DNA of 64,000 bases from Chryseolinea sp. H1M3-3. Its GTDB lineage: Bacteria > Bacteroidota > Bacteroidia > Cytophagales > Cyclobacteriaceae. A model generated the notes under the pieces. The model had not been told where the DNA came from, did no database searches, and saw nothing but the letters and a program-made list of their open reading frames with translations. Within the stretch, counting starts at the first letter, position 1, and each line of letters begins with the position of its first letter. This document shows, in pieces, positions 4,566 through 61,514 of this stretch. The DNA lies in the NCBI RefSeq assembly GCF_029360725.1, contig NZ_JARKMY010000014.1, positions 124,001 to 188,000 on the forward strand, in the 5' to 3' direction. The translations under genes were made by a program, and so were the position numbers.

Positions 4566-7500
4566 TCAGAAACTAAACTTTAAGCCCAGCAAATATGATT
4601 TTGCAATCGGGTATCTCCCTTGATCTACCCCTATCGTTAGATCCATTGCGGGTGGATTCGGGTCGTCGCCGGCATTACCAGTACCCATTTCCGGATCTGC
4701 TCCTAAATAATCTGTAATCGTGAAGAGGTTTATTCCTTGCAAATAGATTTGTGCGTTCTTAACACCAAGGTTTGGAAGATCAAAATTATACCCGATTTGA
4801 AGGTTACGCAATCGCATATAGGAGCCGTCCTCAACAAAATATGAATTTGGTTGTGACTCGTTGTTCACGATACTTGTGTGTAAAGCCGGAAGTTTAGCGT
4901 CACGGTTCGACTCACTCCAGGAATCTAATACGCGAGTGCTGCGATTGCTATTGAAGAAGCTTGGGAAATCTGTACCGATCTTGGTGAAGTTGTAAACCTC
5001 ATTGCCTTGGACGCCTTGAAAAAATAAAGTGGCAAAAAACTTATTATAACCCAGATTGATGTTGATGCCATAAGTAAAATCCGGGTGAGGATTTCCCAAT
5101 ACAACTCTATCAAGATCGTTGATAACCCCGTCATCATTGGCATCTCTGTAACGGAATCGTCCGACGCCTGCCTGAGGCGTTGCGAAACCCTGGGAAGGCG
5201 CAGCAGCCACTTCGTTAACATCCTGGAAAATACCAATAACTTCGCGCCCATAATAGTATGATATAGGAAGACCTTTGGAAGTACGGGTTATCACTCCTGA
5301 ACGAAAAACCGATCCGAGTAGAAATGCATTAGGATTATCATCGTTAAGTTTAACAACTTTGTTTTTATAAGCCGACACGTTGACCCCTACATTCCATTTA
5401 AAGGTAGACTGTTTGGATGTATTTCCATAGCTGGCTGAAATATCCACACCCCTATTGTTTACCTCCCCGGCATTTATAAAGGGCGATAAGGCATCGATGG
5501 AAGTCGTTGGCAATGGATCGATGACAATCATATCTTTTGTATCCCGGTCGAACACATCAAAAGACAAATTCAAATCATTGTTAAATAACGCAAGATCAAA
5601 ACCAACATTGAACTGCCTTGAGGTTTCCCATTGCAGGTTTGGCGTACCTAAAAATGTTAAGACCGCGCCGGTAGAAACGGCATTGCCACCGATAGGGTAG
5701 AAACCAATTTCCTGCTGAGCAGCATACCGGTTTAGATAAGGATTGGTTCGGGGTACATCCTGGTTACCCAATAATCCATACGATGCTCTCAACTTCAACC
5801 TCGAAATGAACGACACGCTTTTTAAAAATTCTTCTTCACTTATAATCCATCCAATGCTTCCCGATGGAAACACTCCCGTGTTGTAGCCACTGGCAAATCG
5901 TGATGATCTATCTCTTCTCAAAGAAAACGTTGCCAGATATTTACCTTTAAAAGCATAATCGGCGTTAAAGAAGTAAGAATATAGTGTGCTTTTGTCATAA
6001 ACACTCGTCGGCAAAATTGTAGGCACACTTGTGCCAGCCACAGGAATAATATAGTCAGGGTCTTCCAACAGAAAATCGCGGACATTTATATCGTTGATTC
6101 TGTTCTGCTGACTCAAGGCCTCTATTCCTGCTAAGGCGTTTAGGCCATGATCGCCCATTGTTTTGCTCCATCGCAGGGTATTGGTCCATACCCATGAATT
6201 ACTTACTCCGTTGATTTCCCGCAGTGTATTGGTTGCACGAGGTTCCGGAGCTTCTGGATTTTTGCGCGTGATAAAGTTCTGTTGATTGTCATTATAGGTT
6301 ACACCAATCGTGGTACGTAAAGTAAAATTTTTCAAGAACACTCCTTCGAGGTAAGCATCACCCAACAAGCGAAGATTTCTGTTGAAGTTATCTTTTCCAC
6401 GGATTAATTCTGCAACAGGATTATTTGTGTTACTCAGCCCTGATGAAGTAGACGGTCCGGATCCACCAAAATTTCCACCTTCATCATATACAGGAACGAG
6501 TGGCGGCGTTGCTTGTGCTAGTCCGATCTGATTTTGCGCTAACTGATCTGTATACGCCAAACTTAAGTGTTCTCCAAATCTGATATTATCGGTAACATCA
6601 AACTCCGTATTTATTCGCGTTGCATAACGCTCAAAACCAGTATGCATCTGAATACCTTCAGCATTTTGATAACCTAAGGCAACCAAATATTTACTTCGTG
6701 TTCCTCCACCTTGTAACGATAAATCATAGTTTTGGATGGGTGCTGTTTCAAAAATTTCGTTTTGCCAATCGGTACCTTGACTTGCACGTGTAATCTTGTT
6801 GGTAACAGGGTCATAGGGTAAGGCATCCGTACCGCGAATAAAGGTTGGAATTACAGGGTCAGGACCTGTGCCATATTGAGGATGGCTAAGGGGTGCATTG
6901 GTGTTTTTAAAACTTTGCCAAATAACTTCACCCATCTGCTGAGAATTTAACATCTCCTGCAGTTTTCCAACTTTTTGTATTCCAACGTAAGAATTGAAAC
7001 TGAATAAAGGTTTGTCACCTTTGACACCTGATTTTGTTGTTACGATAATAACGCCGTTAGACGCCCTTGCGCCATAGATTGCTGCGGACGCATCTTTTAA
7101 TACATTGATAGACTCTATATCATTAGGATTTATTTGAGCCAGCACATTGGGATCTGTAGTCTGCATACCATCGATAACATATAAAGGTCCGTTATCATTG
7201 GTTGTTCCAAATCCTCTAATCCGAATCAAAGGTGTAGTGCCTGGTTGCCCCCCTCCCACGACATGAACCCCTGACGCACGACCTTGCAAGGCCTGACCTG
7301 CGTTAACAATCGGAAGCGCTAGCGCCTGTTTTGTGTCGATCTGTGACATTGCGCCTGTAACCAGTTCCTTTGATTGAGATGTGTATCCAACCACGACCAA
7401 TTCTTGCAATGCGGTAGCATCGTCGACCAATTGTATATCAACAGTAGTTCGCGATCCAACGGCAACTTCTTGTGTAGCAGATCCAACGTACGAGATCACT

Positions 7501-52858: not shown

Positions 52859-54277
52859 ATGGCACCCAACCTGCAATCTTATTCTTTGAATCTTCGTTCT
52901 TTCCGATGCTTCTGGCAAAGCACACCGTGCTCCCTTGCATTCACAAGAAAAAAAGATTCTAAAGCTGGTTTCGGGAGATTTGTTATCCCTATTTTATTAG
53001 CCTTCACATCCTTTTCCGCATGTGCGCAAAAAGAAGTGCGCACGTATTACGACAATAAAAAAGAACATCTGCAGGAGAAATATTTTGTCTCCAAAGAAGA
53101 TGAGCAAAGATTTATCGGTAAGTACCAACGTTTCTATGAAAGCGGTGGTATCATGCTCGAAGGAAATTTCGAGGATGGCGAAAAATCTGGTGTGTTCACG
53201 GAATATCATGAAAACGGTAAGCCTGCACGCAGACTGAATTACGTGAATGGCATGCGCCATGGAGCCGTTCAGGTTTTTGACGAAGATGGAAGGCCATTTC
53301 AAAAAGCATACTATCAAAACGATAAATTGGCCGATAGCATTCAACTTTATTTTGACAATGGGAACGTTAAGCGCGAATCTTTTTTTGTGAAAGGAAAACC
53401 TGAAGGTCTTGTTAAAGAGTATTATCCCAGCGGAAAACTTAAAAAAGAAATTAGTTATCAGAAAGGTAAGCCCAATGGGATCACACGCACTTTCTACGAG
53501 GATGGCAAAGTAGAGACTGAGGCCAATTACGTTGACGGTATCATGAGTGGTTTTTATAAAACCTATTTCATCAATGGCCAGTTAGAGACGGTCGCCACGA
53601 TGGAAAAAGGATCTAAAAACGGTCAGTTTAAAACATACAATCGCGAAGGGAAGCTAATTCTGGAAGGTAGCTTTATAGGCGGAAGACTCCATGGAGATAA
53701 TACCGGATATTTTGACGATGGTTCTGTGCAGCATCGTTTTCAATATAAGGATGGAAAGAAAACAGGTACTAATTTCGAATATTTTCCCTCTGGTAAGATA
53801 AAAACCAAAGAACAGGTTGCAACTAATGGGATAGATGCGCTCTTAGAAGAATTTGATGAATCCGGCACATTAAAAAGTGAAAAAAAATTGAGGAACGGAA
53901 TAGCGCATGGGCTATGGGTTGTTTATTGGCAAGACAAAAAAATTCCGAAGACGAAAGAAACTTATGAGAACGGAAAGCTTCAAGGTATCCGTTATACTTA
54001 TTATGCCTCGGGAAAAATCCAAAAAGAGGAATCTTATAAATTTAATTTGCTCACCGGCCCTGTGAAAACATACTACGAAACCGGCGCACTGGAATCGGGG
54101 GGGGAATTCAGGTCAAACAGAAAGCAAGGTTTGTTCACAAGCTATCATTCTAATGGAAAAATTAAAGAGCAAGGAGAATATGCCGGAGATAAAAAACACA
54201 AGGAATGGAAACAATATGATGAGAGCGGAAAGCTGATGAATACCACGATTTTCAAAGCCGGACTTCCTGTAAATTAA
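52859..54277 (+). CDS. Secreted MORN-repeat (YwqK-type) protein
   Basis: 472 residues. After a basic stretch, a hydrophobic signal (FVIPILLAFTSFSACAQ, near residues 41-57) ends in a possible lipobox Cys. The ~40 residues before it are unusually long for a signal n-region, so the true start may be internal. Sixteen MORN_2 units follow, each about 23 residues with the core Y-x-x-(N/S/D)-G-K (for example EYYPSGKLKK, TYYASGKIQK, SYHSNGKIKE). YwqK-like proteins of this kind are sometimes called toxin-antitoxin components, but no toxin is evident here. The gene is followed directly by a 0.83-kb tandem repeat array. Confidence 0.85.
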   Translation: MAPNLQSYSLNLRSFRCFWQSTPCSLAFTRKKDSKAGFGRFVIPILLAFTSFSACAQKEVRTYYDNKKEHLQEKYFVSKEDEQRFIGKYQRFYESGGIMLEGNFEDGEKSGVFTEYHENGKPARRLNYVNGMRHGAVQVFDEDGRPFQKAYYQNDKLADSIQLYFDNGNVKRESFFVKGKPEGLVKEYYPSGKLKKEISYQKGKPNGITRTFYEDGKVETEANYVDGIMSGFYKTYFINGQLETVATMEKGSKNGQFKTYNREGKLILEGSFIGGRLHGDNTGYFDDGSVQHRFQYKDGKKTGTNFEYFPSGKIKTKEQVATNGIDALLEEFDESGTLKSEKKLRNGIAHGLWVVYWQDKKIPKTKETYENGKLQGIRYTYYASGKIQKEESYKFNLLTGPVKTYYETGALESGGEFRSNRKQGLFTSYHSNGKIKEQGEYAGDKKHKEWKQYDESGKLMNTTIFKAGLPVN

Positions 54278-54291
54278 AACTCGCCGAAAAA

Positions 54292-55123
54292 ATTTGAACA
54301 CCGAATATCGAACACCGAACAGGGAATGATGAAGGGTCGGGCTTAACATCCGCACCTTGAATGCTCACCATCAGCGACTCAAACAAGTTTTGAAAGATTA
54401 AAATCCATCGAAGCAGCATCCGATCATTATTCGATGTTCGGTGTTCCTTGTTCGGTATTCAAATTTGAACACCGAATATCGAACACCGAGCAAGGAATGA
54501 TGAAGTGTCGGGCTTTAGCACGCGCACCTTTTAATGTGTTCATCATCAGCGAGTCAAAAGGTTTTGAAAGATAAAAATCCATCGAAGCAGCATCCGATCA
54601 TTATTCGATATTCAGTGTTCCTTGTTCGATATTCAAATTTGAATAATGAATATCGAACAAGCCTGCCCGCCGGTAGGCCGGGAACAAGGAATGATGAAGG
54701 GTCGGGCCTTATCAGTCAGCCCCTTTAATGTTCATCAACAGCGACTCAAATAGTTTTAGAAGATAAAAATCCATCGAAGTGCCATCCGATCATTATTCGA
54801 TATTCAGTGTTCCTTGTTCGATATTCAAATTTGAACACCGAATATCGAACACCTAACAAGGAATGATGAAGGATCGGGGGCCTTATTAGTCAGCCGCTTT
54901 TATGTTCATCATCAGCGACTCAGATAGTTTTGGAGGATAAAACTTCATCGAAGCGGCATCCGATCATTATTCGATATTCAGTTCCTTGTTCGATATTCAA
55001 ATTTGAATAATGAATATCGAACACCGAACAAGGAATGATGAAGAGTACGACTTTAATCATGAGCACCTTAACGTCCATCATCACCGTCTCAAATAGTTTT
55101 GGAAGATAAAAATCCATCGAAGC
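54292..55123. repeat. Tandem array of about five 172-bp hairpin-containing repeats
   Basis: Units begin with ATTTGAA(C/T)A at 54292, 54463, 54637, 54829 and 55001, giving lengths of 171, 174, 192 and 172 bases and a final partial copy of 123. Within each unit are a GAATATCGAAC...GGAATGATGAAG block, a CATCAGCGACTC block, an ATCCATCGAAG(C/T) block and a CATCCGATCATTATTCGAT block. Across unit junctions, TTCCTTGTTCGATATTC pairs with GAATATCGAAC...AACAAGGAA around the palindrome TTCAAATTTGAA, so a long hairpin forms at each junction. No transposase or known CRISPR layout is present. The unit lengths are not all multiples of three, and the third is longer because of a nested palindrome. Confidence 0.9.
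54661..54678. repeat. Nested GC-rich palindrome within the third repeat unit
   Basis: GCCTGCC and GGTAGGC pair (one G-T pair) around a four-base loop CGCC, followed by CGGG. In the other units the same place holds only ACCG between GAAC and AACAAGGAA. The piece looks like a small palindromic element inserted into a hairpin arm. Such CTGCCCGCCGG-type palindromes are common in Bacteroidota. Confidence 0.65.
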
Positions 55124-55600
55124 TTAAATCACAGGAATAAGAAAGTATTCCATCATTTCATTGACCACAAGCATAGCCGTGGGAATTGATAGTTTTACTT
55201 TCGGCGCCAATTCCCTTTGTTCTTTTGCTACCACCTTTTTTTCCGATCGTGCTAGAAAACCTTCATCTTCAACAATCGAATATGTACTGTATTGAAATGG
55301 AATTGGCTCTGCAAATAAAGTAATCACCCGCTTTTCTTGAAAGGCAATACCCTTTAAAAATTGATTAAACAACCTGCGATAGTCATGCTCATCGAAAGGT
55401 TTGTCGAATTTACCAATCTGGGCATGCGCTGTGTTGACGTTGTAAGTACCCAAACGCAAATTTCCCGAATCGATATCATTTTCTAAAAACGCACGTTTTA
55501 CTGCGTTTAATAGTATGGCTTCGGTTTGATCGCCCGCATCAGCAGTTTCCAAGAAGTCATCATTTTTAATAAGGATTTCAATTTTCTTTTCTCTGTGCAT
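55124..55600 (-). CDS. Hypothetical protein of unknown family
   Basis: 158 residues with no signal peptide or membrane segment. The N-terminal half has an acidic pattern (IEILIKNDDFLETADAGDQ) and then a mixed helical stretch (LFNQFLKGIAFQEKRV). The C-terminal end is hydrophobic (SIPTAMLVVNEMMEYFLIPV). I do not recognise a family. Its stop codon adjoins the repeat array on the left, and a 165-base gap separates it from purC on the right. Codon use and even composition suggest a real gene. Confidence 0.6.
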   Translation of the reverse strand: MHREKKIEILIKNDDFLETADAGDQTEAILLNAVKRAFLENDIDSGNLRLGTYNVNTAHAQIGKFDKPFDEHDYRRLFNQFLKGIAFQEKRVITLFAEPIPFQYSTYSIVEDEGFLARSEKKVVAKEQRELAPKVKLSIPTAMLVVNEMMEYFLIPVI

Positions 55601-60915: not shown

Positions 60916-61127
60916 GAAAGCCACAGCTGAAGCTCAGAGTTATTGAAAGGGGCTTCCATCAGCGCTAACGTTTCACCTATACAATAATCATCAATACAAC
61001 TACAAAAAAATTACCTCACAACGATAGACCTATCAAAAAAAGTGTGCTCCTAAATAAATTTTTTTTATCGATTGTGTTAAAGTGAAATTTATTTCTTTAA
61101 CTTTTGGGTACTAAACACTTTTATAGC

Positions 61128-61514
61128 ATGGCAAAGAAAGCTAAAAAAGCAGCCAAGAAGGTTGCTAAAAAGGCGGCAAAAAAAACCGCTAAAAAAGCAG
61201 CTAAGAAGACTGCAAAAAAATCGGCTAAGAAACCTGCAAAAGCGGCAAAAAAAGTAGCTAAAAAAGCTCCCGCCAAGAAACGCACCTCGATGACGAAGGC
61301 TGTAGCGAAAAAGGCGGGATCCATTAAGAGAAGCGTTACTTCGAAAGCAAAAGCATTCTCAGCAGCCGCTGCCGATAAAGCAATGGAGGTTAAAGATGCT
61401 GTCGCAGAAACTGCTACATCAATCGTGGAAACGGTAGGTGAAAAACTGGCAGACGCAAAAGAAGCGATCGAAGAAAAGGCTCAAGACATTCAGAAAAACC
61501 TATTAGGTACATAA
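61128..61514 (+). CDS. Histone-H1-like Lys/Ala-rich protein
   Basis: 128 residues from the ATG at 61128. A TTG at 61104 would add eight residues. Residues 1-50 are KKA/AKK-type repeats with strong positive charge (KKAKKAAKKVAKKAAKKTAK and so on), similar to eukaryotic H1 tails and bacterial AlgP. Residues ~65-128 are an amphipathic helical region (KAFSAAAADKAMEVKDAVAE, EKLADAKEAIEEKAQDIQKN) resembling YtxH-like or apolipoprotein helices. It probably binds DNA or membranes. No ligand is shown. It is flanked by a promoter region at the left and a terminator at the right. Confidence 0.8.
   Translation: MAKKAKKAAKKVAKKAAKKTAKKAAKKTAKKSAKKPAKAAKKVAKKAPAKKRTSMTKAVAKKAGSIKRSVTSKAKAFSAAAADKAMEVKDAVAETATSIVETVGEKLADAKEAIEEKAQDIQKNLLGT

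Follow-up and report, generated by a model that had tools for sequence, protein, structure and literature searches.

A tandem array of heptad-armed units in Chryseolinea sp. H1M3-3 and its probable relation to stem-forming IVS-like elements outside rRNA

The array in the window and the words of its arms

The window analysed in this study is a stretch of 64,000 nucleotides from Chryseolinea sp. H1M3-3 (contig NZ_JARKMY010000014.1, positions 124,001 to 188,000) and contains a tandem array at 54290-55123 that fills the gap between two convergent ORFs, gene orientations, including convergence, being taken here and below from simple ORF calls. The upstream ORF (52859-54277, plus strand) encodes a MORN_2 repeat protein, and the downstream ORF (55124-55600, minus strand) encodes 158 amino acids for which neither a Pfam or NCBIfam match nor a match in five congeners was found. 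Tandem Repeats Finder reports a period of 174, 4.7 copies and 71% matches, in agreement with the sequence-only reading of this DNA, which had described five head-to-tail copies with the last one partial. The unit length of about 172 bases given in that reading is close to the period, but the start-to-start spacing is not constant: different stretches of the units give values between 169 and 194. Pairwise identity among the five units is 80-91% over aligned bases, gaps not being counted.

Each unit is built of a core of about 100 nt between inverted arms of degenerate heptads, which read GAAnAnn in the left arm and TTCnnTn in the right. Unit 1 (54290-54463) has its GAA arm at 54296-54326, its core at 54327-54429 and its TTC arm at 54430-54460, and the corresponding parts of unit 2 (54464-54637) lie at 54467-54497, 54498-54603 and 54604-54634. 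Unit 3 (54638-54829) owes its greater length to a GC-rich palindrome, about 20 nt long and inserted near 54659-54680, which interrupts its GAA arm (54641-54691); its core follows at 54692-54795 and its TTC arm at 54796-54826. Unit 4 (54830-55001) is regular again, with a GAA arm at 54833-54863, a core at 54864-54969 and a TTC arm at 54970-54998, and the truncated unit 5 (55002-55123) retains a GAA arm (55005-55035) and a core (55036-55123) that ends at the stop codon of the next ORF. The inverted repeats reported earlier at the unit junctions are real, but that the arms are runs of 7-nt words had been missed. A run of three left-arm words, TTCnnTnTTCnnTnTTC, is found at 19 places in the window, every one within 54296-55035, where 0.07 occurrences are expected.

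The same words recur elsewhere in the genome, where a pattern of four words in a row has 75 matches and its reversed control none. Among 186 words counted in eight regions of the genome there are 11 types, chiefly GAATATC (66), GAACACC (47) and GAACAAG (39). The sequence GGAATGATGAAG on the inner side of the left arm is common to all 18 units that were aligned, a selection from which units with a short core were left out, these differing at the GGAATGATGAAG position, and most of the 18 carry CATCATTC or a similar sequence on the inner side of the right arm. The inverted ends GAATGATG..CATCATTC continue the arms. The ends of the units are word arrays of varying order with no single fixed terminal sequence. 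In the stretches of this genome that were searched, the GC-rich palindrome of about 20 nt was found at one fixed point of the GAA arm at seven places, which lie in the window and in L010, L011, L012 and L013, and because the arm point is the same at all seven, units were probably copied between loci after the insertion. A separate tandem array on contig C11 (about 200350-201300; L016:1850-2800) has two word families per unit, TTC heptads alternating with words of the GGTAATCn type.

The RNA of 54280-55130 folds 8.4 standard deviations better than 20 dinucleotide shuffles. The earlier suggestion of a structural RNA draws some support from the pairing of the arms but little else, since across the 18 units none of 15 predicted pairs had changed on both sides and the core has no consensus structure. 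A riboswitch-like structured RNA finds no support, given this absence of compensatory changes and the absence from the window of any Rfam family at gathering score. When 54200-55200 was scanned permissively against Rfam, none of the 16 matches reached gathering score; 15 are microRNA hairpins, with E values down to 0.00066, and we take these matches to be chance fits to a hairpin. The window contains no tRNA, and a CRISPR array was rejected, as it is the whole unit of about 174 nt that repeats at 80-91%; the sequence-only reading had likewise seen neither a CRISPR spacer pattern nor a tRNA-like end.

Dispersal of the units in the host genome and beyond

A blastn search with the unit gives 37 matches in the host genome of 6.88 Mb; they fall in about a dozen places on contigs designated C1, C2, C6, C11 and C14, the weaker ones spanning little beyond one arm. 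A profile of the core detects near full-length relatives in one congener, G004, with five hits of E 2.5e-6 to 1.5e-3 and three weaker ones, and among the 281 loci searched this congener accounts for every hit of E 1 or lower that is not from the host. The heptad pattern matches at 106 places in G004, and the remaining four congeners sampled have no match to it; the repeat family is therefore patchy. A search for the unit across the order gave matches in at least 14 of 291 genomes, the own genome included, a lower bound because two candidates were scored per genome; outside the own genome these matches are only 24-42 nt long. Presence at a single locus without relatives had been named in advance as what would point to a simple local duplication, and with 37 host matches and the G004 relatives the opposite was found. 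A purely local duplication is accordingly rejected on the dozen or so host loci and the core homologues in G004.

A comparison with the congeners was possible at the array on contig C1 (L014), which lies between an ORF that we take to be rhomboid-like and a 157-aa ORF. These two genes are about 1 kb apart in the host and about 78 nt apart in G004, where the orthologous gap (contig C235, about 6957-7035; L283) is without the GAA/TTC unit and instead holds a run of a different heptad, GGGTATA. The site looks as if it attracted heptad runs of changing alphabet. In three other congeners (G001-G003), 1.1-1.6 kb separate the two genes, and the sequence that follows the first of them is a different one. 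A target duplication is not definable at the C1 array in the comparison of host and G004, because the intergenic flanks of the two genomes do not align; transposition of the array units was itself not seen in the genome comparisons. The many separate host loci, the relatives in G004 and the gene pair that lacks the unit there support the idea, raised from the sequence, of a mobile or dispersed repeat family.

IVP genes and their association with inverted word arrays

At the array on contig C2 (L012), an ORF between two units belongs to the 23S rRNA intervening-sequence proteins (IVP, also S23), small four-helix-bundle proteins known from insertions in ribosomal RNA: it matches PF05635 (23S_rRNA_IVP) with E 1.7e-13 and TIGR02436 (four helix bundle protein) with E 5e-21. 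It sits in the TTC..GAA junction between units and not at the core position, and its polarity relative to the words is the reverse of that in the five relatives described below. Two other junctions of the C2 array hold, as judged by eye, a short stretch like the 3' end of the IVP ORF, and the word decayed, which had been offered for the repeat family, fits these remnants as well as the truncated last unit of the window. The core of the window units has no homology to IVP, for which reason the core as an IVP remnant was rejected; to speak of a core in place of an IVP is, because of this, a statement about layout.

Of 247 genomes of the class, 146 contain matches to the C2 IVP. The 30 best loci were taken, of which 21 were scored, one being the own locus; the other nine had no ORF by the motif finder, and one locus, L256, looks mis-framed. 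In five of the 20 scored relatives (L235, L241, L245, L246 and L250), runs of three GAA words stand before the gene and TTC runs after it, and the words belong to the word list of the window, the other relatives having different words or none. The host genome itself has five IVPs, all of them away from the window array. One has the GAA/TTC words, another has octamers (score 38, p 0.005), and the remaining three score like the null (22, 23 and 22; p 0.29, 0.18 and 0.29). The octamers belong to a GTGTTTnn family in the same genome, for which three words in a row have 27 matches and the reversed control none; the matches at C6:336343-336829 flank an IVP gene (L019), and the rest lie away from the five IVP genes. 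IVP/S23 matches were present in 52 of the 60 genomes sampled in the family, and two solved structures, 2gsc and 2rld, are matched by IVP.

Whether periodic words accompany IVP genes in general was scored by counting windows of 35 nt with at least 24 matches at lag 7. For 101 IVP genes of the family, such windows were present within 250 nt in 15 of 100 flanks on the upstream side and in 19 of 101 on the downstream side. The far control flanks (900-1150 nt), which are largely coding, had them in 1 of 94 and 2 of 96 cases. At lag 8 the counts were 6/100 and 7/101 near versus 0 and 1 far, and lags 4-6 and 9-13 gave at most one near family IVP genes. A set of 80 named IVP loci, most of which are from Bacteroidota while Anaerolineaceae, Planctomycetaceae and others contribute one locus each, gave 15/80 and 17/80 near and 1/77 and 0/80 far at lag 7; the two sets overlap in part, L042 and L153 sharing arms, as do L076 and L168. 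The words are specific to the locus, for example GTACnAn, AGAnnnn, AGTATCA and AGTTTGA, with a period of 7 or 8 nt. An inverted match between the upstream and downstream flanks exceeded the 99% cross-locus null at 39 of 95 family and 24 of 80 named IVPs, so that the majority of single IVPs fall below this threshold, whereas a match in direct orientation exceeded the same null at 9 of 95 and 6 of 80, and no far flank did so (0/89 and 0/76).

Clusters of lag-7/8 words number 62 in the 84 kb within 250 nt of any IVP and 17 in the 326 kb farther off, a 14-fold difference in density; word runs away from any IVP exist, these 17 clusters and the window array itself among them. The association of IVPs with word-built inverted arms is supported statistically, and its weak point is the gap-matched control, in which intergenic sequence is set against intergenic sequence: lag-7 windows were present at 28/134 gaps beside IVPs versus 16/112 (p 0.19), and at 24/135 versus 4/36 (p 0.45). 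The control gaps in part adjoin second IVPs, 19 of the 80 named loci having two or three IVP domain hits. Where a named locus (L151-L230) has multiple hits, they are mostly 1.6-1.9 kb apart from start to start; those at L196 are one gene in pieces.

Among the loci open to scoring, 74 of 78 named and 82 of 93 family ones have the IVP flanked on both sides by genes that run in its own direction, and the median gaps around the IVP domain at these 156 co-directional loci are 69 nt before and 54 nt after. By eye, one arm begins at or near the stop codon of the preceding gene and the other ends near the next start at several of 15 loci. A crude search for short strings of 23S rRNA matched no IVP locus. 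Among the papers that searches of open-licence full text listed, we recognised none that links IVP genes with word arrays outside rRNA.

A stem-element reading of the array and its alternatives

The known system closest to this arrangement is the intervening sequence (IVS) of 23S rRNA. In the parts of PMC4990558 that treat the Coxiella burnetii 23S IVS, the S23p ORF follows two or three copies of the heptamer GACAGAT and one degenerate copy, the number of GACAGAT copies is strain-dependent, RNase III cuts the 28-bp stem into which the inverted ends pair, and the function of the S23/IVP proteins is given as not known. The elements described here share with that IVS the long stem formed by inverted ends, the S23/IVP ORF in the loop, the heptamers beside the ORF and an ORF that decays (PMC4990558, in the same parts). 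They differ from it in lying outside rRNA, in arm words that use an alphabet specific to the locus and, in the case of the window units, in being arranged in tandem without an ORF. For the window array specifically, the stem-forming inverted ends are present, and its location is between two protein ORFs, with no rRNA at Rfam gathering score and no IVP/S23 ORF in the loop, the five PF05635 genes of the genome being elsewhere. Short IVSs without an IVP/S23 ORF are known.

We consider it somewhat probable, at about 0.55, that the window array is a head-to-tail, IVP-less and non-autonomous member of a class of stem elements that is related to the 23S rRNA IVSs and located outside rRNA. The full element would be an IVP gene (S23/four-helix-bundle) between two inverted arrays of degenerate 7-nt words, and in the window units the non-coding core of about 100 nt would occupy the place of the IVP. 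In favour of this reading are the arms made of words, the number of host loci and the core homologues in G004, the IVP gene and its 3'-end remnants in the C2 array, the five IVP relatives whose arms use the same words, the statistical link of IVPs with inverted word arrays, the sense position of IVPs between co-directional genes, the Coxiella precedent, and the excess of host and G004 clusters between convergent genes (figures below). Against it stand the lack of paired changes and of a core structure, the lack of IVP homology in the core, the reversed polarity at C2, the three host IVPs that score like the null, the many single IVPs under the 99% threshold, the gap-matched control and the four congeners that lack the pattern. 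By analogy with the rRNA IVSs, the arms, once transcribed, would form long double-stranded stems open to cleavage by a nuclease such as RNase III, and because the stems would be cut from the RNA, an insert behind a stop codon may be tolerated, as IVSs are in rRNA. The IVP, we infer by the same analogy, might aid the spread or persistence of the element family by binding the arms as DNA or as RNA. Copies without an IVP could then multiply in trans, or in tandem via recombination between the word-built arms.

The units could instead be an ordinary MITE, bounded by long terminal inverted repeats and derived from an insertion sequence that has a transposase, but not itself autonomous, which later formed tandem arrays. 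The window unit does have the hallmarks of a MITE in being short and non-coding with terminal inverted repeats and dispersed copies, and both the ends GAATGATG..CATCATTC that extend the arms and the orthologous G004 gap without the unit agree with this. We nevertheless regard an ordinary MITE as unlikely, since what the C2 array carries between its units is an IVP gene, no transposase was recognised by eye in the ORFs around three arrays, the ends vary in word order where one fixed terminal sequence would be expected, and no target duplication is definable in flanks that do not align. An explanation that we find slightly less plausible still is a co-opted two-way transcript end, in which strings of hairpins between convergent genes stop or stabilise transcripts from both sides. 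It is favoured by the symmetry of the hairpins, by the lack of promoter-like sites in the array region (shuffles give 2.5) and by the position of the window array and other clusters: 7 of 13 host and 6 of 14 G004 clusters with both neighbours scorable lie between convergent genes. These 13 of 27 compare with a background of 47 convergent junctions among the 317 counted along 400 kb of contig C6, a background that includes four of the clusters themselves (combined binomial p 4e-5, Fisher 1e-4). The survey comprised 34 clusters, of which five without a neighbour and two from other genera (L038 and L039) were excluded; L018 had none, and the survey does not include the isolated matches at C12 and C19 or several of those in G004. 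The convergent position may, however, only reflect where insertion is tolerated, and the remaining host clusters lie between co-directional (5/13) or divergent genes (1/13). In addition, the array region has one terminator-like site, the same as in shuffles (mean 1.0), and G004 has the gene pair of the C1 array without such an array.

The least probable of the alternatives, in our view, is plain slippage, by which short-period repeats expand in non-coding DNA and palindromes arise via template switching, with neither an element nor a function. In its favour, runs built of words in various alphabets are frequent across the phylum, a phylum-wide pattern search matching 137 of 395 genomes; this count is no measure of the present family, because plain 7-nt runs of other alphabets are caught and the reversed control also hits many genomes. 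The GGGTATA run in the G004 gap, the 17 word clusters far from any IVP and the non-significant gap-matched control also fit slippage. It does not readily explain why several host loci and G004 have in common a core of about 100 nt whose ends are conserved, why related IVPs in other families are accompanied by the same words, or why word clusters are 14-fold denser near IVPs.

The association of IVPs with word arrays hints at a wider class of IVS-like insertions outside ribosomal RNA. A broader proposal, which we put forward tentatively and hold with less than even confidence, is that S23/IVP is mainly the gene of very widespread selfish stem elements in messenger RNAs, each locus having its own 7-nt word array and lying in sense between operon genes. 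IVP-less copies, the window array among them, would have spread to gene ends, insertion into rRNA would have befallen only a few members, the 23S IVSs, and the 7-nt period might be the footprint of the protein or of the copying reaction. The locus-specific 7-nt arrays that flank IVP genes offer a direct lead on these abundant proteins as a candidate binding site. They fit the position of IVP genes inside co-directional runs and may connect the IVSs of rRNA with a wider class of mRNA elements.

Three other systems invite comparison. The BrickBuilt MITE of Porphyromonas gingivalis resembles the units described here in belonging to Bacteroidota and in being intergenic and multicopy with tandem repeats and inverted ends, as set out in the relevant parts of PMC4596501. 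It differs in that its direct repeat is 23 nt long and lies within one MITE, with no IVP mentioned in those parts, while here it is 7-nt words that form inverted arms. The TAACTGA heptamers of Beggiatoaceae, Cyanobacteria and some Bacteroidetes are likewise intergenic 7-nt direct repeats; as described in portions of PMC4679880, they are essentially one word, with 169 direct sets and one indirect, most of them just before start codons, and no IVP is mentioned there. In the window itself, a 24-nt tandem repeat of another kind at 61139-61267 lies in a short ORF (61104-61514) that probably encodes a Lys/Ala-rich repeat protein. Avd of the diversity-generating retroelements shares a fold with IVP, and one family IVP (L041) matches the Avd profile NF033474 weakly, with E 4.2e-5 and 23.8 bits, below the cut-off of 80.
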